The notes: a model not told the origin generated them from the sequence alone. A stretch of 49,230 nucleotides of DNA from an uncultured Pseudomonadota bacterium (GCA_950059285.1 CATLTV010000013.1:1-49230), one strand, 5' to 3'; positions 6,175 to 27,216 are shown, counted from the stretch's first letter. Numbers and translations are program-made.

Positions 6175-7515
6175 GTGCAAACAACCTTGATCCTGGGTGC
6201 CTTCCTCGTGGGCGCACTCATCCTCGGACGTTATCTCTCTCACATCGCAAGATTCTCATCGTTCACTGTGACGGGAGGCATTTACGTCCTGCTCGGACTT
6301 ATCCTTGGACCCACCATATCAGGTGTGATGAGCACACATAACCTCGATGCGTTGACTCCTCTTGTGAGTCTCCTGCTCGGTGTATTTGGTTTTGGCCTCG
6401 GTTTGAGCGCTCAAAATCGCCTCTCATCCTGGCAGCTCTCCTTTACAGGCGTCCTCTACTGGTTTGTGGTCGCCTCTTTTGTTGGCGTCTCCTTCTGGCT
6501 GCTTGCCACATTTACACCCTGGTTTCCCACGCTCACCATTGGTCTTTGCCTCACCCTCGCGGCGCTTGCCTGCGCTGGAAGCGTGCATCAACTCGATGTG
6601 TTGACCGCCGCCTGGCATGCCAAGAAAGAGGTCATGAACAGGCTCATCACCTTTGCCTTGCTCGGTGAACTTGTCGCCGTGCTCGCTTTTGGTTTTAACG
6701 CGTCGTTTCTTCGTAGCTCCACGCTTGTGGTTGAAGGTGTGCGCCAGCTCACCACCATCGAATGGCTCTTTGCCAGCGCTGTCATCGGTGCACTGTTTGG
6801 CCTCCTGTTCAGCACATTTGTGGGCGATGAAGAAAACCAACCCAAACTCTTTTTGACCAGCGTGGGCTCCATCCTCTTTGCCAGCGGTATCGCCGTGGGC
6901 CTTGATGTCTCTCCCATGTTTGTGAACCTCATTGTCGGCATCGTGGTGGGCCTGTCCTCCTCACACGCAGATAGTTTACGCGATGCTGCCGAGCGCCTGG
7001 TACACCCTGCGAGCGTCCTGCTTCTTGTGCTCGCAGGTGCGCTCTGGGAACCTCAGTGGAACCTTGAACTTCTGCTCTGTGTCATCCTGTACCTCGTCTT
7101 CCGTGCGCTTGCCCTCTTTATCGCCAACGTCTCCATGACAGGTTTTCAACAGCACTCTGACTTGCGAAAAATCTTTGGTCCTGGACTTGCCCTTCAAGGC
7201 ACCTTCAGCATGGCGCTCGTACTCGACTTTGAGCAACATCAACCTGACACCGCACAGTTCATCCTCAGCATCATGATCATCGCCTTCCTCATCGAAGGTC
7301 TTGTCTCCCCCATCTTCTTACGACGCGCCTTGCTTGATATCGGAGCCATCTCCGCATGGGTTAATGACTACGATGAGACTCAAAAGAAAAAACCTGCATC
7401 CACAACATCAGCACATGCTGAAGACCCCTCCTCGGAGGAGTCCACTCCTCTGATCTGGAACACGCCCCCCAGTGAACTGGAAGTTCTGGATTTAAGCCGC
7501 GCTGAAGAAAGCTAA
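6175..7515 (+). CDS. CPA2-type cation/proton antiporter-like membrane protein
   Basis: This 446-aa protein is largely hydrophobic, with roughly a dozen predicted membrane segments and a short charged cytoplasmic tail rich in Glu/Ser. Segment order and motifs such as GGIYVLLGLILGP and GPGLALQGTFSMALVLDF resemble the Kef/NhaA-like sodium/proton exchanger superfamily. The start is GTG, supported by AGGAG six bases upstream (6165-6169). It opens the seven-gene ion-homeostasis operon and is followed 49 nt later by trkA. A K+/H+ or Na+/H+ exchange role is inferred from family and context; the ion is not known. Confidence 0.8.
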   Translation: MQTTLILGAFLVGALILGRYLSHIARFSSFTVTGGIYVLLGLILGPTISGVMSTHNLDALTPLVSLLLGVFGFGLGLSAQNRLSSWQLSFTGVLYWFVVASFVGVSFWLLATFTPWFPTLTIGLCLTLAALACAGSVHQLDVLTAAWHAKKEVMNRLITFALLGELVAVLAFGFNASFLRSSTLVVEGVRQLTTIEWLFASAVIGALFGLLFSTFVGDEENQPKLFLTSVGSILFASGIAVGLDVSPMFVNLIVGIVVGLSSSHADSLRDAAERLVHPASVLLLVLAGALWEPQWNLELLLCVILYLVFRALALFIANVSMTGFQQHSDLRKIFGPGLALQGTFSMALVLDFEQHQPDTAQFILSIMIIAFLIEGLVSPIFLRRALLDIGAISAWVNDYDETQKKKPASTTSAHAEDPSSEESTPLIWNTPPSELEVLDLSRAEES

Positions 7516-7564
7516 TTCACCACACAAGATTCATTTCTGTTGACCTCAAACAACCTGATTTTTT

Positions 7565-8902
7565 ATGAAAACTGTTATCATTGGTGCGTCAGAAGTCGCT
7601 GTTATTCTTGCTAAAATGCTCTCTAGCAACATGCATGATGTCACGATCATACATAATGAAGACCGCGATCTTCGTCACCTCTACGAGCTCGACCTTCAGA
7701 TTATCGAAGGTGATGCCACACATCGCGCCTTGCTCAAACAAGCGGCCGTCTCACAAGCCACACTTGTGGCGAGCGTCTCGCACAATGCCTCATACAACTT
7801 GGTGTCAAGCGCGCTCGCCAGTGAGCTTGGCGCACAGATCTCCATCGCTGTTGTGGAAGACCCCGGATTCTTCTCCACAAGCGCTGCTGTCGAATATGAC
7901 GTTCTTGGGGTTGAAGCAGTGTTAAACACTGCTCGCCTGGCTGGTCAGGAGATCATGAAACGCATTCGTAAAATCGACCTCGACTTCGTGGTCAACCTTG
8001 TGGGCGCATCCATCCAGGTTCTGCTTGTGCCCATTCGACGACTGAACAAGGTTCCTTCGCAGGCACCCTCCGAACTCAGTCTTCCCCACGGTACATTTGT
8101 GCCTGCGGTGCTTCGCGATGGTGATCTCATCGCGGCACAGGAAGTACATTCGCTTGATATCGATGACCAGTTGATGGTCGTGGGTACACCTGCATTGATT
8201 TCAAGCGCCTTGCACAAGCTTGGTGTACCAAGTTCACGAGGCCGTGTGATGATTGTGGGCGGAAGCTCAGCAGGTGCACAGCTTGCTCGCCGCCTCTCTC
8301 GTGAAGGACGTCGCGTTCAGCTTATTGAAGCGTCCGAGCGTCGTGCAGTTGAACTTGCCGAGGATCTTGAGTCCGTCACCATTCTTAATGCAGATGGCTC
8401 CAACCTCGCGTTGCTTGAAGAACTTGAGGTCCAGGATGTCGAATACATGATCACTGCCACGAGCGACGATGAGCTCAACCTGACCACAGCCCTGATGTCC
8501 AAACAGCTTGGCACCATGCATGCCTTTGCACTCATGAACCGCGCTGGCTATGGCGCAATCTACGAGCGCCTTGGTGTTAATGGTGTTGTATCTCGTGATG
8601 ATACGCTCTCCAAAAATATCATGACCATCGCGGATGTGGACCGCAGCGATGAAAATGAAACGATCAAGGGTTCGCATCATGTGCTGGAGATCTGGCGAGC
8701 ACCCTCGAATATGAAGGAAAACTTCAGCCTGAATGCGCTGAACTTGCCGCCGCAGGCGATATTGTTGGGGATTGTGCGTAGAGCACAGGCACTTCAACCT
8801 GGTCAAACCGAGGCGATTCGACCTCGTGATTCGCTGGTCTTTGCTGTACCTCAATCTCAAATTAAAGCCTTGCGCCGCGTCCTGTCAAAATTCTCTAATT
8901 GA
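7565..8902 (+). CDS. trkA: TrkA-type K+ channel regulatory subunit (two RCK units)
   Basis: This 445-aa cytoplasmic protein has two RCK_N-RCK_C repeats, as in classical TrkA, which gates the TrkH pore by nucleotide binding. The first Rossmann motif is VIIGASEVAVILA and the second, near residue 222, is VMIVGGSSAGAQLA. The first lacks the usual third glycine (Ala instead), so nucleotide binding in that half may be altered. Acidic residues that normally contact the ribose follow each motif. It lies 68 nt before trkH, the normal partner order. No convincing Shine-Dalgarno is visible ahead of the ATG. Confidence 0.93.
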   Translation: MKTVIIGASEVAVILAKMLSSNMHDVTIIHNEDRDLRHLYELDLQIIEGDATHRALLKQAAVSQATLVASVSHNASYNLVSSALASELGAQISIAVVEDPGFFSTSAAVEYDVLGVEAVLNTARLAGQEIMKRIRKIDLDFVVNLVGASIQVLLVPIRRLNKVPSQAPSELSLPHGTFVPAVLRDGDLIAAQEVHSLDIDDQLMVVGTPALISSALHKLGVPSSRGRVMIVGGSSAGAQLARRLSREGRRVQLIEASERRAVELAEDLESVTILNADGSNLALLEELEVQDVEYMITATSDDELNLTTALMSKQLGTMHAFALMNRAGYGAIYERLGVNGVVSRDDTLSKNIMTIADVDRSDENETIKGSHHVLEIWRAPSNMKENFSLNALNLPPQAILLGIVRRAQALQPGQTEAIRPRDSLVFAVPQSQIKALRRVLSKFSN

Positions 8903-8970
8903 TTGATTAATAAAAGTTTTTAACTCAATAATTTCCGAGTAGCACTCTTCATTTCTGGAGGCTCTTTACC

Positions 8971-10422
8971 ATGTATCCTCTCGCGGTGGCCAAAAACCTG
9001 TCGGCGCTTCTGTTGCTTTTTGCAGCATTGCTCTGTGCGCCTGTGGGTTTGTCGGTCTCACAAAATAACATGAGCGCGCTGGTCGCATATGCGACCAGCG
9101 CGCTCATCACGACGATCCTTGCCGTGGTTCTCGGGTTTATTAGCCGAAATGCAAAACCAAGAATCCACCGCAAGGACGCCCTGATTACTGTGGCCATGAT
9201 GTGGCTTATGATGGGCGTGCTTGGCGGATTACCTTTTGTGATTGAAGGGTCTATCTCCGATCCTGCTGCGGCGCTCTTTGAAGCTGTCTCGGGGTTCACT
9301 ACCACGGGAGCCACGGTGGTCTCGGATGTCGATGGCCTCAGTGATCCGACAAACCTCTGGCGATGCCTCATGCACTGGATTGGTGGTATGGGTATCGTGG
9401 TGCTCTTTGTCGCGGTATTTCCCCAGATTGGTGTGAGCGCCAAACAACTCTTCAAGAACGAGGCTGCTGGTCCCATTGTCGATGGTTTTAAGCCTCGCAT
9501 CAAAGAGACGGCCTTTTCGCTCTGGATCGTGTACACCATCCTGACTGTGTTATGCGCCGTCAGCTTCTTTGCTGCGGGCATGAACAGCTACGATGCTGTC
9601 TGTCATGCGATGAGTACCCTTGGTACAGGCGGATTCTCCACACGAGGTGCCTCGACGGGCTTCTATCAAAGCCCTCTTATTGACTGGATTACATGCTTCT
9701 TCATGTTTGTCGCAGCGCTCAACTTTGGACTCTTTTATGATGTCGCACGTGGTCGCTGGCGCTCTCTATTTCAGGATAAGGAGACTCGCTTTTATCTCAT
9801 GATCAACCTCCTTGTTGTGATGGTTGTCATGTGGTGCATCCTCCCTCTTCACAATGATAACGGCATTGAATCACTCCGTTATGCGCTCTTTCAAACCCTT
9901 GCGGTGACGACCACAACAGGGTTTATGACCGAGGACTTTGACAAGTACCCTGATATTGCGCGCTACATTCTGTTCATGTGTATGTTCATGGGAGGATGTG
10001 CGGGGTCCACAGCAGGTGGTCTTAAAGCCATTCGCATCCTCGCAATTTTAAAGCTTATTTTTCGGGAACTTGCGCTGGTGATTCAACCTCGTCAGGTCAT
10101 TCCCGTGCGTATTGGTCAGTCCACATTTCCTCCCAAGGTGCTGCATGCCATCCTCACATTTAGCGTGGCATTCTTCTTTTTGTGGGCGTTTGCCTCGGCC
10201 ATTTTGGTCGCGATGGGGATGGACTTTATCTCTGCAATGAGCGCCACCATTGCTTGCCTCGCAAGTATTGGACCTGGCCTGAACAAGGTTGGTCCTACAC
10301 AAAACTTCATGATTGTGCCCGCCGCAGGAAAGGTTTTGCTCTCATTCTGCATGATCGCTGGACGCCTTGAGATCTTCGCGCTCTTTGCTGTCTTCCATCC
10401 TCAATGCTGGCGAAAGGGGTAA
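8971..10422 (+). CDS. trkH: Trk K+ uptake pore protein TrkH
   Basis: This 483-aa membrane protein has the four-fold M1-P-M2 organisation. The four selectivity-filter segments are visible: FTTTGAT (about residue 110), LGTGGFST (217), TTTTGF (313) and ASIGPG (431), plus the GGCAGSTAGGLKAIR stretch typical of TrkH/KtrB. It should take up K+ with TrkA as regulator. A GGAGG Shine-Dalgarno lies before the ATG. Codons about 34-46 lie in a 38-bp perfect palindrome, so both strands encode nearly the same peptide there. The downstream antiporter gene follows directly. Confidence 0.95.
   Translation: MYPLAVAKNLSALLLLFAALLCAPVGLSVSQNNMSALVAYATSALITTILAVVLGFISRNAKPRIHRKDALITVAMMWLMMGVLGGLPFVIEGSISDPAAALFEAVSGFTTTGATVVSDVDGLSDPTNLWRCLMHWIGGMGIVVLFVAVFPQIGVSAKQLFKNEAAGPIVDGFKPRIKETAFSLWIVYTILTVLCAVSFFAAGMNSYDAVCHAMSTLGTGGFSTRGASTGFYQSPLIDWITCFFMFVAALNFGLFYDVARGRWRSLFQDKETRFYLMINLLVVMVVMWCILPLHNDNGIESLRYALFQTLAVTTTTGFMTEDFDKYPDIARYILFMCMFMGGCAGSTAGGLKAIRILAILKLIFRELALVIQPRQVIPVRIGQSTFPPKVLHAILTFSVAFFFLWAFASAILVAMGMDFISAMSATIACLASIGPGLNKVGPTQNFMIVPAAGKVLLSFCMIAGRLEIFALFAVFHPQCWRKG
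9070..9107. repeat. 38-bp perfect palindrome inside trkH
   Basis: The 19-bp arms 9070-9088 and 9089-9107 are exact reverse complements with no spacer and lie in the coding sequence near the TrkH N-terminus. It is the only long palindrome of this kind I found wholly inside a gene. Confidence 0.85.
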
Positions 10423-10425
10423 GTG

Positions 10426-13400
10426 ATGTTAAAACGTATAATAGTCCTCGCGCTCCTGTTCGGCATGATGTTTGGCCTGGAAATCGTCACACACGGTTTC
10501 TCGGGTGATCTTTTTATTGCCTCTCAGACACTCTCAAGTATTGGTTTTACCGCGCTCTTTGCCTTCACCGTGGGTGAGATCTTTGGCGCATTTAAACTCC
10601 CTCGAGTGACAGGTTACATCCTTACGGGGATTGTGCTTGGTCCACACCTCTCCGAGATCTTCTCCTCCACCATTGTGGAGCGCATGCAGATGTTTAACAC
10701 GCTTGCGCTCGGTCTCATCGCCCTGTCTGCGGGCCTTGAACTTGATATGCGGGGTACGTGGCGGCTGATGAAGACGCTTGGCGTGACCATTCTCTTAAAA
10801 ATTGTGGCCTTGCTGGTCCTTGTGGGCGGCGCCTTTGTCGCCATCGAGATGATATGGTCCCCCTTCAAGCTCGATATGAGCCAGACCATTGCTGTGGCGC
10901 TGATCATCGCCACCCTTGGTATCGGTACTTCTCCTGCAATCGCGCTTGCGATTCTTAACGATACGGGCGCCAAGGGACGACTCTCCGAACTGCTGCTTTC
11001 CATGGCGGTCCTCAAGGACCTTGTGGTGGTGGTTTCACTTGCCATTGCCATGGCTGTGGTCAACGCCTTGCTCTCGGGAGGAGGCTTTGATCCTCACTCA
11101 CTTGTACACGTTGCGGAAGAAATCGGTGCCTCCATCCTTGCAGGGAGTATTATTGGTGGTCTGACCATCGCATACATCCGCTTTGTTCATCAGGAGATGC
11201 TCTTTTTTGTGGTGGCAATGATCCTTGCCGTGGCTCAGATCAGCGCCATTCTTCACCTTGAACTCCTCCTGGTGTTCATTGTAGCAGGATTTCTCGTTCG
11301 TAACTTCTCCCCCTACGAACATGACCTGCTTCACCCGCTTGAAGTTGTGGCGCTCCCTGTCTTTGTGGTCTTCTTTACCACGGCAGGCGCCAACATCGAT
11401 CTTGGTAAAACCTGGGCTGTGCTCCCAATTGCGATCGCGCTCTTTGCTGCTCGTGGCGTGGCCTTCTTTGCCGCTTCAAAGTTTGGCGCACTCATCTGTA
11501 AAGAGTCCGAAGCCATTGCAAAACATAGCTGGATGTCTTACTTGCCACAGGCAGGTGTGACGCTTGGACTTGTCACCATTGCTGTAGGAAAACTCTCTCC
11601 TGAAGGCGCGTCCGAAACCATGGTACGCGTTGCCGAAGTCATGGAACCTCTTGGTGTGGCTCTTGTGGCATTAAACCTTCTGGTTGGCCCTGTCACTGTG
11701 GGTATGGCCCTCAAGAAAGCAGGTGAAGTGCCCGAAGAAGCTTCTGGTGAAGATGCACATGCTGCCGAATCACACGATGCACATGCCTCAACACCAAAGG
11801 CATCCACGCTCACGATCGAACCTCAACATGAGGAGCTTGATCCTCAGAAAATTCTCCTCAGCGTACAAGACATCCCTCTTGACTGGCTTGCCGCCATCGA
11901 TCAGGACTTTGCCACCGATACTTCACTACAGAATATCGCCACCGAACTTGATAAAAAAGTTGAAGACATGACGCTTGAAGTCATTGATTTACTTGAACAA
12001 CAGCTTGTCACACTGTTTGAAATCCTTCCCAATGAATACTCCCATGAAGAGTTTGCAGATATTGCAATTCAGTGGCAACGACATGCCCAGTGTGGAGAAT
12101 CTCAGGTAAGCGATGACCTCGATCATATTCTTCGAGACCTGTTCCCTTCTCTGCTCGGTGCACTCCCCAAAAGTACACTCACAAAACTTCACAGCGTGCA
12201 CCTGGATGCAAGCGATGAAAATACCATGGTCAAGGTCAGAGCCGCCGTGCGACGTGCGTCCGTCAGGTTCTTGCCCAATGGTGAGGCTGCCTACAGAAAA
12301 ATTCTTGTCAAACAAAGCGCTCGTGCGGTCCTTGAACCAGGGTTGCTCGCTGCGCTGCTTGACTGGATGACCGCCCTCGCCAACGCTCAGAACACCTTCT
12401 TTGGTGCCATGGTCGGTGCGCTTGAATCTCCCGAACCGCGCCAAAACCTGCTCGACACCATGCAGGCCCAAATCGATTACGCACGTGCTCGCGCACGTTC
12501 AGCCTGGCGTCATGGCTGGGTTCAGGCGCTTGAAGAACTTATTACAGAGCTCAACACGCTTGATACGCCTGTAAACCCTTCAACGTCTGTCTCTTACTCC
12601 AAGGCAGAACACCATATTCAAGAGCGCCTGAAACTACTCAAACGCGCCCGAAAGCACTGGCGTCTTGTCCACTCATCCACCGATGCTCATGTCATTGCTC
12701 GTGCGTCCAATATTGTCGCACGTCATGAACTTGTGGATCTCCTTGATTCACGCTTCATTCAACCCGAAAAACATATCACTGAGGAAATTCACTCCACGCT
12801 GGACATCGTGATTCAACGCCTCTCCATGATCGAAAGTCATGTGTCGCAAGTTGTGTCTGAAAGCGATGAAAAAGACAAAACCAAGGACAAAATCTTTACC
12901 CCAGAAGAGCTTGAAGAACTCGGTCAACAGGTCGAGCAGTGCTATGATTCACACCTTCAAAAACAACTGCGGCGCCTGGTCCATCAACATGGTGGTCGAC
13001 AACTTCTGGCCGAACTTCAAAAAGAAATTGAACACCGCCTCGCTCAACTCCCCTCCGAACTTGAAATGCTTAACCTCGAGGACACAAACTACAGCTCCTC
13101 AAGCTATCATCTCAACCTGCAAGACCTCTTCAGGCAAAACCTTCTCTCCGAATTCTTCACCGAATTGCTCAAAGAACATGGTGAGTTCAGCGAAGTCATT
13201 GCTCAGGTGCCCTCACGCACCATGGAAGCCCTCCATGCCATTCAGTATGCGCTCGAACTTGTCGCCCGTGGGCGTATCTCCCAACAGGAGGATGCTCGCC
13301 AACACATTCAGACAAGCTTCTCCCGAGGACTCAAGCAACTTGAAGAAATTAAAGAGGAAATTACTCAGGACCGTGATGAACTTGAACAGGATATCCACAA

Positions 13401-14736
13401 GCAAATCTCCAGATCGTTTGAGGAAATCACTAGCAACATCACACAACCCCCTCGGTTTGATGGAATTCGCTTTGTTCAGGAAGGTCTCAGACATCCGCTC
13501 GTGGAACGCGTTGAGCAACGCACCCAAGTCCTGCGCAAACAGGCTATCGAGCACTTCAAACAACTTCAAACATGGGTGTACAACCTCAGTGATCGTGAAG
13601 AAGTCCGTGATCTGCGTATCCGCAGAGGTATCGACAAACTCTCCTCACGTCAGATGAAACAATGGCTTGAAGACACGCTCCCTGCACCTTCACAACTCCC
13701 CATCGACTCTCTGATCCATCAACTCTTCTCACTGGACCCCGTCGATGACAGGCGACTTTTTGTCTCCCGTAATGAGAGCACGCAGCTCCTGGAAGCTGTG
13801 GAACGCTGGAAACACCATGAACGTGTCTCCATTGTGGTCAAAGGCCCCATCGGTTCTGGCAAGTCTTCGCTCATTGATAATCACCTCTTTGATATCGGTG
13901 CAACAAACCTCTACCGCCTCGATAGACGCTTCTGGCAACGCACCGATGGCCTCCTCAGAGCGCTCTCTTTTGAGATCGGCGTACGTGAAAACCTCGATGT
14001 CATGGCAAGAAAACTCAACAGAGGTCAACATGTCATCATTGTTGATGGTCTTGAACAATGGCTCGCCCCTGATATCTCGGGCTTTGAACAGTGGCGCACG
14101 CTCCGAAAACTGATCAGCAAGACACCCTCCACGCTCTGGATCGTCTCCACACATGATGGGTTCTATAATCTCCTTGCAGAAGCACTCCCCTGGGATGTCG
14201 CTTTTACCGATATCATTCAGATGAGCTCGTTGAGCACAGCCAAACTCATGGAGATTATGGATCTCAGACATCGTCTCTCTGGTTATGATTACAACTTCCC
14301 TGAACCCTCTGTAAAACAACGTGTTTTAACACGTCGTGAAGACAATAAAACATTCTACTTTGAAGACCTCAACAAGCGCTCTTCTGGTGATATTCGTGCT
14401 GCGATTTACTTGCATCTGCGCGCCATGTCTCAACAGCGTGAGGATATCTCATTGCAGCCTCTTCAATCACAGAGCATTCCCTTCCTTCAAGCACTCCAAC
14501 TTGAGGAACAAGCTGTGCTTCTGTCATTGCTTCAGTTTGCTCAACTTCCTCGAAAGAGTCTTCAGAATTATCTCTCGACGCCATCGATTGAAACATTTGA
14601 AATCCTTAACAGATTAAACATGTTAGGTCTTATTCAAGATGCTTCTTCGCACGACGAAATTTACATCCCATTCCATTTGAGACGGCCCCTCCTACTTGAA
14701 CTCTCCACACATCACACACAGGAGGTCTCATCATGA
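10426..14736 (+). CDS. Kef-type antiporter fused to a coiled-coil region and an AAA+-like ATPase domain
   Basis: At 1436 aa this is far larger than any ordinary Kef/CPA2 antiporter (about 400-650 aa). Residues 1 to about 410 form a 12-13-helix antiporter core (for example GYILTGIVLGPHL, ALSAGLELDMRGT, LPQAGVTLGLVTIAVG). A His/Glu/Ala-rich linker follows (about 435-455). Then come some 640 residues of soluble, mostly helical Glu/Gln/Leu-rich sequence. A P-loop domain carries Walker A GPIGSGKSS (1141-1149 counted from the GTG at 10423) and Walker B HVIIVDGLEQW (1203-1213). A sensor-2-like SGDIRAAIYL and a winged-helix-like tail follow. The usual Kef RCK domain is absent. ATG 10426 is preferred over GTG 10423 because of AAGGGG at 10414-10419. 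Its last four bases overlap the MscS-like gene, so the two are probably coupled and may form one complex. ATP-gated ion exchange is an inference. Confidence 0.85.
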   Translation: MLKRIIVLALLFGMMFGLEIVTHGFSGDLFIASQTLSSIGFTALFAFTVGEIFGAFKLPRVTGYILTGIVLGPHLSEIFSSTIVERMQMFNTLALGLIALSAGLELDMRGTWRLMKTLGVTILLKIVALLVLVGGAFVAIEMIWSPFKLDMSQTIAVALIIATLGIGTSPAIALAILNDTGAKGRLSELLLSMAVLKDLVVVVSLAIAMAVVNALLSGGGFDPHSLVHVAEEIGASILAGSIIGGLTIAYIRFVHQEMLFFVVAMILAVAQISAILHLELLLVFIVAGFLVRNFSPYEHDLLHPLEVVALPVFVVFFTTAGANIDLGKTWAVLPIAIALFAARGVAFFAASKFGALICKESEAIAKHSWMSYLPQAGVTLGLVTIAVGKLSPEGASETMVRVAEVMEPLGVALVALNLLVGPVTVGMALKKAGEVPEEASGEDAHAAESHDAHASTPKASTLTIEPQHEELDPQKILLSVQDIPLDWLAAIDQDFATDTSLQNIATELDKKVEDMTLEVIDLLEQQLVTLFEILPNEYSHEEFADIAIQWQRHAQCGESQVSDDLDHILRDLFPSLLGALPKSTLTKLHSVHLDASDENTMVKVRAAVRRASVRFLPNGEAAYRKILVKQSARAVLEPGLLAALLDWMTALANAQNTFFGAMVGALESPEPRQNLLDTMQAQIDYARARARSAWRHGWVQALEELITELNTLDTPVNPSTSVSYSKAEHHIQERLKLLKRARKHWRLVHSSTDAHVIARASNIVARHELVDLLDSRFIQPEKHITEEIHSTLDIVIQRLSMIESHVSQVVSESDEKDKTKDKIFTPEELEELGQQVEQCYDSHLQKQLRRLVHQHGGRQLLAELQKEIEHRLAQLPSELEMLNLEDTNYSSSSYHLNLQDLFRQNLLSEFFTELLKEHGEFSEVIAQVPSRTMEALHAIQYALELVARGRISQQEDARQHIQTSFSRGLKQLEEIKEEITQDRDELEQDIHKQISRSFEEITSNITQPPRFDGIRFVQEGLRHPLVERVEQRTQVLRKQAIEHFKQLQTWVYNLSDREEVRDLRIRRGIDKLSSRQMKQWLEDTLPAPSQLPIDSLIHQLFSLDPVDDRRLFVSRNESTQLLEAVERWKHHERVSIVVKGPIGSGKSSLIDNHLFDIGATNLYRLDRRFWQRTDGLLRALSFEIGVRENLDVMARKLNRGQHVIIVDGLEQWLAPDISGFEQWRTLRKLISKTPSTLWIVSTHDGFYNLLAEALPWDVAFTDIIQMSSLSTAKLMEIMDLRHRLSGYDYNFPEPSVKQRVLTRREDNKTFYFEDLNKRSSGDIRAAIYLHLRAMSQQREDISLQPLQSQSIPFLQALQLEEQAVLLSLLQFAQLPRKSLQNYLSTPSIETFEILNRLNMLGLIQDASSHDEIYIPFHLRRPLLLELSTHHTQEVSS

Positions 14737-15611
14737 GTAACCCCACACAAGATGCTCCTGAAACACATCCAAACGATGTCAAAAAAGATTCCAAATTACA
14801 AGAGGTTGAAGCCGTCGTGGAGAACGCTGCGTCTGAAGAGATCTCCTCTGTGACACAGCTTGAAACGCAGCTTGAACAGGTCAAAACCATCGACCTTCAG
14901 CTCATCACAGGTATTGGGATCGTCATCATTGTCTGGCTGCTCGCCAGGCGCTTTGCAAAATTCTCGGTGCGTAAAAAAATTATTCAACCCCTGACAGGCA
15001 CACGGCTTAATCTACTTATCACCACCTTCATGATGCTCATGTTGGGTTGGCTCATGACAAGCAAGATCTTTCAGGCCCTAAACCTCCAGTTCTCCACAGC
15101 CGCAGTGATGCTTGGCCTCCTGATGCTCGTCTCGTTGCCTCTACTTGCTCGTGATGTGCTCGCTGGATTGACACTTGGCTTGCGCGGTCAGCTCGCGCCT
15201 GGAATGCGCCTGAAAATGCAAAACTATGATGGCTATGTTGAACAGGTCGGCCTCTCCTCCGTCACTCTTCTTGGTGATGACGGCGGACGCATCGTCCTTC
15301 CCACGCGCCAGCTTAGACAGAGCCCTTACGAATTACGTGCAGCCAACCGCATCGCACGCCTGTCCTTCTCCATACCGCTCCCCAGAAAAATTGATGACCA
15401 TGCTCAGGATGAGCTCCTTGAGAAAATACGCTGGATCTGCATCACCTGCCCATACAGACAACCCTCTTCCCCCGTGTCCGTGTCACTTCAGGATGAACAC
15501 TCCGACACACAATCCTTGCAAATCTCTCTTCAGGTCGCATCTGAACAGGCATCTCCTCTAGCAAAATCGTTTTTAAATCATCACATTTCAACCATTGAAG
15601 AGCTCTGCTAA
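14733..15611 (+). CDS. MscS-like mechanosensitive channel protein
   Basis: This 292-aa protein has an acidic hydrophilic N-terminus (about 50 aa), then three hydrophobic helices. A small beta domain follows (about 150-190; LAPGMRLKMQNYDGYVEQVG, then RIVLPTRQL) that matches the MscS middle beta domain, and a short C-terminal alpha/beta region. It should form a homo-oligomeric channel that releases solutes or ions under membrane tension. The start is strongly supported by AGGAGG ahead of ATG 14733, and it overlaps the preceding stop as ATGA. Tight coupling to the Kef-ATPase fusion suggests joint action in osmotic or K+ control. Confidence 0.87.
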   Translation: MSNPTQDAPETHPNDVKKDSKLQEVEAVVENAASEEISSVTQLETQLEQVKTIDLQLITGIGIVIIVWLLARRFAKFSVRKKIIQPLTGTRLNLLITTFMMLMLGWLMTSKIFQALNLQFSTAAVMLGLLMLVSLPLLARDVLAGLTLGLRGQLAPGMRLKMQNYDGYVEQVGLSSVTLLGDDGGRIVLPTRQLRQSPYELRAANRIARLSFSIPLPRKIDDHAQDELLEKIRWICITCPYRQPSSPVSVSLQDEHSDTQSLQISLQVASEQASPLAKSFLNHHISTIEELC

Positions 15612-15618
15612 CCTCCTT

Positions 15619-16188
15619 ATGATAAACCAAAATAAAATGATAAAACAAACACTTACATCTGTCGTGACAATGGCTTGCCTCCTTGCCGTGACCTCCTCCG
15701 TGGTACACGCAGAAGACACTCCTCAAGAGTCATCCTCGATAAACGCAGGTCTCAACCTACGCACTGATCTTGGCGCACACCCACTGCGTATTGATCTTGG
15801 CTGGAGAACTCAAAACACAGACCTCCTGCTTGTCCTTGACCCCATGTTTTGGACCGATGGACAGTCCAGCTCGGACCTTATTTTTGGATGGCGTTTCCAG
15901 AATCGTGTTCAACCTATCATCGGTTGGCGAATGCACAGCATCAAGCTCCCTGAAGGACGTCAACTGCAACAAAACCTGCTTGCAGGTGTGGCCCTCGATT
16001 TGCCCACGTTCTTTGACAATAAACTACGTGGACAGTGGGGTTTTGAGCTTGCGACCACGTTAGTAAAACATGGCGCAAATCTACCCGCTGAAACCATCTC
16101 ATTTGCCTCTGCACGACACTACCTTGACCTTGTCAACTTTGGCATGTTCGCCCGCTTTGACTTTCATATTCCTCTGGGGACCAAGTAA
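15619..16188 (+). CDS. Small exported envelope protein, probably beta-barrel
   Basis: I do not recognise the family. From ATG 15619 the product is 189 aa, with a Sec signal peptide ending near VVHAED. Alternating hydrophobic and polar strands with many aromatic and Gly residues (LRIDLGWRTQ, LIFGWRFQN, IIGWRMHS) follow, suggesting a small outer-membrane barrel or periplasmic beta protein. Longer translation from 15595 would overlap the preceding gene; ATG 15637 is also possible, and none has a clear Shine-Dalgarno. Its stop overlaps the next start (TAATG), so it belongs to the ion-transport operon. Confidence 0.7.
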   Translation: MINQNKMIKQTLTSVVTMACLLAVTSSVVHAEDTPQESSSINAGLNLRTDLGAHPLRIDLGWRTQNTDLLLVLDPMFWTDGQSSSDLIFGWRFQNRVQPIIGWRMHSIKLPEGRQLQQNLLAGVALDLPTFFDNKLRGQWGFELATTLVKHGANLPAETISFASARHYLDLVNFGMFARFDFHIPLGTK

Positions 16189-17084
16189 TGCCTCGTACCT
16201 TTTATAACTATACGTTTTTACTTGTCATTCTCACGGCTCATGTTGCCTGTTCAAGCGATGTTGAAGCCCCACGCATTATTTGCCACAACGCCAATTGTGT
16301 TGAACCTGCCAACCCCGTCGAGGATGACACGCCTGAAGCTCTCAACGCCTCTCTTGCGCTTGTAGATGCCCAGGATGTCCCGCTAATTGATGGTGTGGAA
16401 ATCGATACCTTCTGGTTTGGCGAAGAAGATCGTTGCCTCTTTGCGCATGACCTTGCTGATCCTGACAGTGCGCAAGATGCATCCGTTGCTTTTGATATAA
16501 TTTCCAATCATTTACAGCAGCGTATTGAAAACTCAAAAGCAATTACGCGACAGGGCAAGGCGTTTTCGATCTTCATTGAACTCAAGGGTCATGTGGGCCC
16601 CGCCAAGAGTGAAAAGCACTCCCCGGAACAACTCCAGAAACACGCCGACTGTGCAGCTCAACTGGGCGTTGATTTTGCCGTCCACTCAACCACACACGAC
16701 TACCCCCTTGAACTTGTATTCACATCATTTGATGCGTCTCTCTTGTTAGAACTCCAGTCCTCAACGCTCTATCAAGATATTGCCGCACAACCCAACGCCG
16801 TCAGCAAGTTAGGGTATCTTGTGGGTGTACCAGCACCGCTTGATTCTCAAAGCAAACCACTGGACAGCATTCCTTCTGAACTCAACATTGATATGTTGAG
16901 CGCTCACCCACACTGGACAAGACACAGCACACTTCATGCTGCGGAAAGCCTCAACTGGGAGTTGTCACTGTGGATGTTCAGCGCTGTGCCCGAAACCTAT
17001 GACGCCATCCTCACGTATAACCCTCACTATATTACCACCAGTGAGGCAAACCTTTTGTCTGGATGGCTTGAAGAGCAAAAGTAA
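16188..17084 (+). CDS. Lipoprotein with glycerophosphodiester phosphodiesterase-like domain
   Basis: This 298-aa protein has a lipoprotein signal peptide (lipobox HVAC, Cys21). The mature part resembles a degenerate GDPD/PI-PLC-like TIM barrel: GVEIDTFWFG followed by FAHD near residue 75-90, FIELKG, VFTSFD and a C-terminal ITTSEANLLSGWL strand typical of GDPD ends. The usual first HRG motif is not seen, so activity is uncertain. It is the last gene of the ion-homeostasis operon. Its final 13 bases, including the stop, are part of the left arm of the following hairpin. Confidence 0.75.
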   Translation: MPRTFYNYTFLLVILTAHVACSSDVEAPRIICHNANCVEPANPVEDDTPEALNASLALVDAQDVPLIDGVEIDTFWFGEEDRCLFAHDLADPDSAQDASVAFDIISNHLQQRIENSKAITRQGKAFSIFIELKGHVGPAKSEKHSPEQLQKHADCAAQLGVDFAVHSTTHDYPLELVFTSFDASLLLELQSSTLYQDIAAQPNAVSKLGYLVGVPAPLDSQSKPLDSIPSELNIDMLSAHPHWTRHSTLHAAESLNWELSLWMFSAVPETYDAILTYNPHYITTSEANLLSGWLEEQK

Positions 17085-17145
17085 AGGTCATGTAGGGGGC
17101 GCCTGTTTCAACAGGCGCCCCCTACATGACCTTTACTTTTGCTCT
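17072..17145. terminator. Long perfect hairpin between convergent genes
   Basis: The arms 17072-17107 and 17110-17145 are exact reverse complements (36 bp) with a TC loop. The left arm contains the last codons of the GDPD-like gene. The right arm ends inside the P450 stop codon. It can serve as a bidirectional terminator. Confidence 0.9.
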
Positions 17146-25116: not shown

Positions 25117-27216
25117 ATGACCCTGCTCATCTTATCCCTGCTCGTCCTTCTGAGTGGGCCTTTGCTCTATAAACTTGTGCAACACGAACCACGTGCGTTC
25201 TGGAGCATCGACGGTTTTGTCCTCGCCAGTATCGGCGGCCTCATCCTCTTTCATGTCCTCCCTCCCACACTTGCTACCGCAGGCGGCGGCGCTCTGCTCG
25301 CCATGCTTGCAGGTCTTGTTCTCCCCATCCTTGCAGAACAAATCCGTGGCGGACATGACCATCACAGCCTCATTCACAAGCTCTCTGTAGGCGTTGCCCT
25401 TGTTGGCCTTGTTTTACACACCTTGCTCGATGGTATTACCCTCGCAGCTCAGACTCATAATGAAGTGAGCACAGCACTTGCCAGCGCTGTCCTGCTCCAT
25501 CGATTCCCTGTCGCTCTCCTCGTCTGGTGGCTTATCCGACCTACCCGAGGTCGACGCGCAGCCATATTCGCCATTACCATGATCGCCGTCGCCACGGTCA
25601 CAGGATTCCTCGTTGAAGAGCATCTTCACCAGGCCATGGAAAGCGTCGGATTTGCCTACGTTCAAGCTTTTATTGCTGGCTCATTACTTCATGTCATCGC
25701 CCATCACCCTCCTCACCAACACGATCACTCCCATGACCATGACCACCATCATGACCATGCTTCACAAAGCTCATGCGGATGCTCCTCCATTTCGGAAGAT
25801 ATCCTTGGTGAACCTGTAAGTTGCTCCTCGTCACAAGATGATGATCGTGGTCATCATGAACATCACCACCACGATGATGAGCACCATGGTCACAACCATG
25901 ACCATCATCACGATCACGAAACCTCACATCCTATGGGGGAAATTGCTCATGATCACGCGATGATAGGAGGTCATCACCACGCAGATGGTCACCATCATGA
26001 TCATGACCACCACAGCCATCCACACCCCCTGATGAGTGGTATTGGTGCGATTGCAGGTATTGGACTTGTGGTTGCGCTCCCATTTATTGAAACGCTCGTA
26101 CTGTCACAGCACAGCGGCGCGCATGCCGATGATGGCCACCATCATCACCACGCACATGATGTCGTGGTAGAGGACTCACTGTTTGTTTTCACAGGCTATG
26201 GAGAACGCTTCTGGGACCTTTTTGTTGAAAGTGCTCCTGCGCTTTTGCTTGGATACATCCTCGCAGGACTCTTTGCATCGTTTCTTCCTCGTGCCTCCAT
26301 GACGTGGATGAATCGCGGTTCTCATCCTCAAAAAGCATTGCGCGGCATGGCATTTGGTCTGCCCATCCCTATTTGCTCCTGTGGCGTGGTTCCTCTCTAT
26401 CAGAGCCTCATTCGTAAAGGCGTACCAGCAAGTGCGGCCCTCGCGTTTATGATTGCCACCCCCGAGCTTGGCATTGAAGCCCTGCTCCTCTCCCTCCCTT
26501 TGCTTGGCACCGAACTTACCATTGCTCGCCTTGTCGCAGCAGCACTAGTTGCCTTACTCGCAGGATGGGTTATTGGCCGTATAATCCCTACCATCGACAC
26601 ATCACAAGATGTTGAAATTAAAAACAAAAACAAGCCATTAAAAGAACGTTTAAAGGAAGCGGCTGACTTTGGTCTGCGTGAAGTCCTCGACGAAACAGGA
26701 CCCTGGATCATCGTGGGCCTGAGCATCGCTGCATTGCTCGCGCAGGGAAGCTTGACTAATAGCTTGCTAAACATCCCTAGCGTCGTACAGGTCATGCTTT
26801 TCGCTCTCATCAGCCTCCCCCTGTATGTATGTGCATCGGGCGCAACACCACTGGCAGCTGGACTCATCTTTGCCGGTGCATCCCCTGGTTCTGCGCTCGC
26901 ATTCTTACTCGCTGGACCTGCCACCAATGTCACCACATTTGGTGTCCTCTCCAACATGCATGGCAAACGCATCGCGATCCTGTTTGGACTCGTTGTCATC
27001 GGGCTCTCGGTCATGATGGGCCTTGGTGTGGACCTCATCTTCCAAAACACGTCCTTGCATGTACAGGTAGAAGACCACCTCCATGATGAACACTCCTTGG
27101 TGCAACTGGTAAGCGCATGGGCTCTGGTCGCACTCTTCTTCATCTCGCTGCTCCGCACAGGACCAAGACACTGGATGCAAACTGTACTCAGCTTTGGCGG
27201 CGGTCATAGTCATTGA
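25117..27216 (+). CDS. Metal permease: ZIP-like N-terminus plus DUF318/YraQ permease (Cu/Zn efflux type)
   Basis: This 699-aa membrane protein has two parts. Residues 1 to about 195 form a ZIP-like helical region with a metal-site-like VLHTLLDGITLA helix. A very His-rich cytoplasmic stretch follows (about 200-350, dozens of His with Asp), interrupted by a helix. The C-terminal half is a DUF318/YraQ-type permease with the signature GLPIPICSCGVVPLYQSL and a second Cys in VCASGATP. It resembles the SO_0444-type Cu/Zn efflux family, so export of zinc or copper is most likely. The His stretch would bind metal. The final bases lie in the following hairpin. No strong Shine-Dalgarno is seen, and an in-frame alternative start cannot be excluded. 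Confidence 0.87.
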   Translation: MTLLILSLLVLLSGPLLYKLVQHEPRAFWSIDGFVLASIGGLILFHVLPPTLATAGGGALLAMLAGLVLPILAEQIRGGHDHHSLIHKLSVGVALVGLVLHTLLDGITLAAQTHNEVSTALASAVLLHRFPVALLVWWLIRPTRGRRAAIFAITMIAVATVTGFLVEEHLHQAMESVGFAYVQAFIAGSLLHVIAHHPPHQHDHSHDHDHHHDHASQSSCGCSSISEDILGEPVSCSSSQDDDRGHHEHHHHDDEHHGHNHDHHHDHETSHPMGEIAHDHAMIGGHHHADGHHHDHDHHSHPHPLMSGIGAIAGIGLVVALPFIETLVLSQHSGAHADDGHHHHHAHDVVVEDSLFVFTGYGERFWDLFVESAPALLLGYILAGLFASFLPRASMTWMNRGSHPQKALRGMAFGLPIPICSCGVVPLYQSLIRKGVPASAALAFMIATPELGIEALLLSLPLLGTELTIARLVAAALVALLAGWVIGRIIPTIDTSQDVEIKNKNKPLKERLKEAADFGLREVLDETGPWIIVGLSIAALLAQGSLTNSLLNIPSVVQVMLFALISLPLYVCASGATPLAAGLIFAGASPGSALAFLLAGPATNVTTFGVLSNMHGKRIAILFGLVVIGLSVMMGLGVDLIFQNTSLHVQVEDHLHDEHSLVQLVSAWALVALFFISLLRTGPRHWMQTVLSFGGGHSH

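Follow-up and report, generated by a model that had tools for sequence, protein, structure and literature searches.

The familiar regulated K+/H+ antiporters carry RCK/KTN domains and respond to small ligands, and the familiar MscS channels respond to membrane tension, MscK and bCNG being ligand-controlled members of the MscS superfamily. The window analysed here (the whole 49,230-nucleotide stretch of DNA) encodes a single polypeptide in which an antiporter domain is joined to a long helical region and an AAA+ domain, and the gene for this fusion is directly followed by one for an MscS-like protein. The locus raises the question of what controls the antiporter and the channel, and whether the two are governed together.

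The fusion protein and its operon

The fusion reading frame (10423/10426-14736, plus strand) is open, free of internal stops and identical to the sequence of the source genome, and encodes 1436 amino acids counted from the ATG at 10426 (Table 1), as a first-pass annotation of this DNA had proposed for the union of antiporter, helical region and AAA+ part. The span given there, 10426-15611, had correct coordinates and was too narrow: a second antiporter-like gene at 6175, with which the conserved unit begins, had been overlooked. Pfam analysis of the fusion assigned Na_H_Exchanger to residues 45-430 (E = 5.7e-23) and, weakly, AAA_16 to residues 1111-1172 (E = 0.001), and returned no match to an RCK/TrkA_N domain, in line with the earlier view that the protein lacks RCK.

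Profile comparison with solved structures placed NHE9 and NapA closest to the antiporter domain, and D198 aligns with the conserved ion-binding Asp of both; across 58 fusions this column holds D in 45, E in 9 and N in 4 sequences and is thus acidic in 54 of them. KefC was absent from the solved-structure profile matches up to an E-value of 10. What the fusion has in common with the KefC/KefB-KefF/G systems (CPA2) is the CPA membrane domain with its TM6 Asp (PF00999, 5.7e-23), followed by a C-terminal cytoplasmic regulatory part that is nucleotide-binding in KefC (PMC10224563, PMC11150392) and putatively so in the fusion. In the latter, however, this part is formed by the helical and AAA+ domains in place of RCK/KTN, and the scanned operon genes include no KefF/G-like gene but a second antiporter-like and an MscS-like gene instead. 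With RCK absent and NHE9/NapA rather than KefC as the nearest solved relatives, the designation of the antiporter as "Kef" was abandoned. From NHE9 and NapA the fusion differs, in turn, by its AAA+ arm.

No Pfam family matched the helical region, and searches of PDB sequences and folds gave no convincing solved relative for it, the fold-search list being crowded by AAA+ matches that may mask a weak helical one. AF2 modelled the region of the window as almost wholly helical with long helices, as the first reading of the sequence had predicted, at moderate confidence (mean pLDDT 62, pTM 0.41), while the corresponding region of a relative was modelled confidently (mean pLDDT 80, pTM 0.51, helices near 90).

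Foldseek searches with the AAA+ part of the window returned ORC/Cdc6 structures (2v1u, 7jgr) and RuvB, and the model of a relative additionally retrieved Apaf-1, CED-4 and a plant NLR, the ORC/Cdc6 and Apaf-1 matches reaching a probability of 1.00. Profile searches matched the AAA+ part to Cdc6 (2v1u, E = 3e-7) and TnsC, and the C-terminal part to MarR/ArsR winged-helix structures. By fold, the domain comprises the P-loop core, lid and winged helix that it shares with ORC/Cdc6 initiators and with STAND ATPases such as Apaf-1 and CED-4, and the window copy carries a Walker A of the form GxxGxGK[S/T], an acidic Walker B and a sensor-2-like arginine. These results uphold the motifs, the winged-helix-like tail and the AAA+/STAND-like assignment proposed previously. 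The Walker B DGL and the GNP(L) motif of the family are features that we take to be STAND-like. In contrast to ORC/Cdc6 and STAND proteins, the domain is here covalently joined to an antiporter or a TM bundle, its Walker motifs are often degenerate, and no repeat sensor domain was seen.

Table 1. Positions of the features described in the text, counted from the first nucleotide of the window.
Feature	Position	Strand	Evidence
446 subunit: divergent second membrane protein of antiporter fold, 446 aa, with which the conserved unit begins	6175..7515	+	
TrkA-like protein (RCK/KTN), K+ uptake regulator	7565..8902	+	PF02254 3.1e-32, PF02080 5e-8
TrkH-like K+ uptake channel subunit	8971..10422	+	PF02386 3e-64
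Fusion residues 1-440: CPA-superfamily cation/proton antiporter domain, ion-binding Asp198	10426..11745	+	PF00999 5.7e-23
Fusion residues 441-1052: all-helical domain (~610 residues), without known family	11746..13581	+	AF2 long helices, hhalign
Fusion residues 1053-1340: AAA+ (ORC/Cdc6-STAND type) core and lid	13582..14445	+	Foldseek, profile matches
Walker A GPIGSGKSS, fusion residues 1140-1148	13843..13869	+	Window fusion
Walker B HVIIVDGLEQW, fusion residues 1202-1212	14029..14061	+	Window fusion
Sensor-2-like arginine R1324, in SSGDIRAA		+	Window fusion
Fusion residues about 1352-1436: C-terminal winged helix, and stop codon	14479..14736	+	MarR/ArsR profile matches, secondary structure of model
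MscS-like channel protein, 292 aa	14733..15611	+	PF00924 4.5e-5 (above its cut-off); 3t9n/3udc
Two co-directional genes: 197-aa secreted protein, 298-aa lipoprotein	15595..17084	+	Overlapping frames

The 446 subunit has no Pfam match, and comparison of its family with that of the fusion antiporters gave an alignment over 390 columns with an hhalign probability of 99.85. Every antiporter-fusion locus whose upstream flank exceeds 4.8 kb, 27 of 27, has this gene upstream of the fusion. Its ion-binding position is acidic in 13 of 34 sequences, compared with 54 of 58 for the fusions, and the protein is a candidate pseudo-antiporter subunit.

Both Trk homologues scored under the cut-offs of their NCBIfam models (closest TrkA model, 5e-75, under the curated cut-off; TrkH-like protein, NF008020, 2.1e-97). 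They resemble the TrkAH K+ uptake system, but here their genes sit after that of the second antiporter-like protein and before the fusion gene. Trk genes are present in 33 of 63 fusion loci, so that their placement in the same operon, which had been claimed, holds for the window and for about half of the antiporter fusions. Two gene orders were observed, 446-TrkA-TrkH-fusion-MscS in the window, some order-level relatives and others, and 446-fusion-MscS in most of the window's own family; across families the genes mostly follow one another with gaps or overlaps of a few bases. A near-perfect palindrome of 38 bases with a 17-pair stem (9070-9107) is located within the trkH coding sequence.

The ATG of the MscS-like gene at 14733 lies inside the stop region of the fusion (ATGA), with a good, AGGAGG-like ribosome-binding site ahead, which agrees with the 4-base overlap described before. 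Its product has the membrane and beta-domain organisation of the MscS superfamily, with homology to both the pore helix and the beta-domain, and residues 53-236 match the solved MscS chains 3t9n/3udc (E = 9e-5). It departs from the superfamily in its near-constant AAA+ partner gene and in TM3, which is divergent in the protein of the window and in the partners of antiporter fusions; given this divergence, the window's MscS-like protein may not be tension-gated.

The two genes that follow probably share the operon transcript and lie outside the conserved unit; relatives of the 197-aa and 298-aa proteins were found in none of the fetched homologous loci. They are followed by a strong bidirectional terminator-like stem (17086-17131). 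By eye, the 298-aa lipoprotein appears faintly GDPD-like.

Distribution and the pairing with MscS

A profile of the AAA+ domain had matches in 157 of the 379 Myxococcota genomes sampled across the phylum and in 20 of the 21 genomes of the window's family, the latter frequency giving the domain a housekeeping look. Loci were fetched for 104 AAA+ genes, 103 of them with an intact 3' end. Of the 104, 63 encode the antiporter and the AAA+ domain as one chain of about 1500 aa (class I). The others are antiporter-less; 28 of them are complete at the 5' end (class II, about 1100 aa) and mostly encode several predicted TM segments just ahead of the AAA+ domain. The helical domain is homologous between the compared class I clades (hhalign 98.5-99.9); kinship with the N-terminus of class II was considered and rejected at an hhalign probability of about 1% or less. 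The source genome also encodes a further protein of this architecture (1606 aa), which has an MscS-like neighbour of its own. A wider contig scan relied on two narrow alignment-derived patterns and could have missed relatives outside Myxococcota. One locus labelled Spirochaetaceae (L078, CAJWOB010000012.1) encodes an AAA+ domain that shares 64% identity with the query family, the record being probably mislabelled or misbinned.

An MscS-like gene lies directly downstream of the AAA+ gene in 89 of the 103 loci with an intact 3' end (53 of 62 in class I, 25 of 28 in class II), some of the misses being contig ends. All 39 sampled downstream partners independently matched PF00924, and in all fetched loci just 12 ORFs besides these were hit by the MscS profile. 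The pairing first noted in the window is therefore conserved across the phylum, and since the MscS gene follows class II with the frequency given above, the association of the AAA+ domain with the channel persists where there is no antiporter. Class II examples with the MscS gene directly after are L066, L068, L071, L118 and L122; by eye, the neighbours of L066 and L068 are conserved as well and include M16-like peptidase, ABC transporter and MCE-like genes.

Comparison of the fusion with its order-level relatives revealed identities of 60-62% for the antiporter, the highest of its pieces, 31-32% for the AAA+ domain and about 20% for the helical domain; in the same comparison, the partner proteins reached 62-63% (TrkH) and 25-26% (MscS-like protein). 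In the tree, the window groups with these order-level relatives (SH-aLRT 84; 99 for the wider clade) and not with the copies of its own family, and its type of fusion was not found in the other 20 sampled family genomes, so that the window operon was either acquired or descends from an old paralogue that has been lost elsewhere. Most of class II is separated in the tree, which is too weak at depth for counting gains or losses of the antiporter.

Erosion of the Walker motifs

The Walker motifs of the window are canonical, and those of its nearest relatives and clade are mostly so. Their conservation does not extend to the whole family: Walker A reads GK[S/T] in 12 of the 63 class I proteins and is non-canonical in the remaining 51, with GKR[S/T] in 16, GK followed by another small residue in 18, GR[S/T] in 7 and other forms in 10. 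Class II has kept GK[S/T] in 22 of 28 proteins and an acidic pair in Walker B in 16 of 28. The first-pass annotation had counted on invariant Walker residues and had named degenerate motifs in most homologues as evidence to the contrary, and it is largely this latter state that was found among the antiporter fusions; the ATP-dependent machine that it envisaged is contradicted as a general mechanism of these proteins. As Walker A is non-canonical in such a majority of fusions, ATP hydrolysis cannot be the family-wide switch mechanism, and the role common to their AAA+ domains may be nucleotide binding or that of a scaffold. The series from intact to eroded Walker motifs constitutes a natural set for asking how an ATPase turns into a scaffold.

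A candidate K+ and turgor module and competing explanations

We assign a probability of roughly 55% to the reading that the operon at 6175-15611 represents a K+/turgor-homeostasis module whose efflux side is placed under a nucleotide-binding switch. Counted in its favour were the conserved gene order with its recurring partners, the high conservation of the antiporter domain and its ion-binding acid, the pairing of class II with MscS, and the nearest folds of the AAA+ part (ORC/Cdc6, Apaf-1, CED-4), which are nucleotide switches. The reading gains plausibility from the salt-in (K+) osmoadaptation reported for the Bradymonadaceae (PMC13384644) together with the nucleotide control of related K+/H+ antiporters, exerted by ATP/ADP on KEA3 (PMC10981695) and by AMP on KefC (PMC11150392).

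In such a module, the 446 subunit would pair with the antiporter domain of the fusion as a CPA dimer in which one half is active and the other has a structural or regulatory part to play. CPA antiporters such as KefC and NapA function as dimers (PMC11150392), which makes the pairing of an active with a degenerate half a natural candidate. The helical domain would serve as a cytoplasmic arm bearing the AAA+ domain, which in its ATP-bound state would hold the antiporter and the MscS-like channel, physically coupled to it, in one conformation, probably the closed one. A fall in ATP, or a disturbance of the arm by turgor or crowding, would release both, upon which K+ (or Na+) would leave by proton-coupled exchange and via the channel, and TrkA-gated TrkH would refill the cell with K+. 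In lineages that have lost the Walker residues, the AAA+ domain might act as a nucleotide-independent or binding-only scaffold for the same contacts. Somewhat short of even odds, in our estimate, is the extension of this scheme to Myxococcota at large, in which a STAND/ORC-type switch on a helical arm would gate a heterodimeric antiporter and a dedicated MscS channel as one K+/turgor machine, with an antiporter-less sister form whose AAA+ domain would control MscS alone.

The components are each of a known kind; their combination and its consistency are new, and no account of an antiporter fused to AAA+, or of an operon joining AAA+ and MscS, emerged from a literature search that covered few subscription papers and preprints. 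The cluster suggests an undescribed control of cell potassium and turgor. If the module reading is true, the energy state of the cell or another nucleotide signal would directly control proton-coupled ion efflux and pressure release, in a module widespread in a phylum for one family of which salt-in K+ osmoadaptation has been reported.

The competitor that survives best, though we consider it unlikely, dispenses with nucleotide gating: the AAA+ and helical parts would put antiporter-channel complexes together, either as an assembly or quality-control machine or as a scaffold that is largely inactive. In its favour, most antiporter fusions have lost Walker A but kept their fold, gene order and partners, and the long helical arm suits it. 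However, a pure scaffold would not need the Walker A that the window and class II have retained, and the 16 fusions with GKR[S/T] might still bind nucleotide.

Distinctly less probable is a membrane-tethered regulator in which the ORC-like AAA+ domain and the winged helix would bind DNA and link gene expression or chromosome processes to the ionic or turgor state of the cell. Although initiators are the nearest AAA+ folds and the chain ends in a MarR/ArsR-like winged helix, this winged helix is not basic (net charge -4 in the window, against means of +0.8 for fusions and -0.2 for class II), and the usual partner of the protein is a channel. As a rule, the winged helices of STAND proteins are not known to bind DNA, which likewise speaks against such a regulator.

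Abortive infection or cell death, the alternative raised by the first-pass annotation, would have the STAND-like domain sense phage or damage and open the antiporter and the MscS pore, so that ion gradients collapse. The matches to Apaf-1, CED-4 and a plant NLR are those of a STAND-type fold, the antiporter evolves far more slowly than the C-terminal parts, and the patchy occurrence of the window copy, absent from the other sampled genomes of its family, would also fit. Set against this are the presence of the AAA+ domain in nearly all genomes of the family and in 157 of 379 across the phylum, the constant second-antiporter and frequent TrkA/TrkH neighbours, and the retained ion-binding acid of the antiporter. 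In addition, PADLOC gave no credible match to a known or candidate defence protein, no homologue was found in phage or plasmid collections, and neither clustering with defence or mobile genes nor any defence gene among the ten other window genes scanned was detected, leaving this explanation very doubtful. Weak PADLOC matches (MTase_I, CasR) were located in coiled-coil or winged-helix parts and were discarded.

Least probable of all is that the Na+/H+ antiporter is an ordinary one, its ATPase tail unrelated, and merely stands beside an independent MscS channel, for although the MscS-like protein could act alone, the near-constant adjacency over deep divergence and in two architectures, and the fused polypeptide itself, argue against it.

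Elsewhere in the window, positions 25117-27216 encode a 699-aa protein that combines a ZIP-like N-terminal part (E = 4.7e-6, below cut-off) with an ArsP_1 permease as its C-terminal part.
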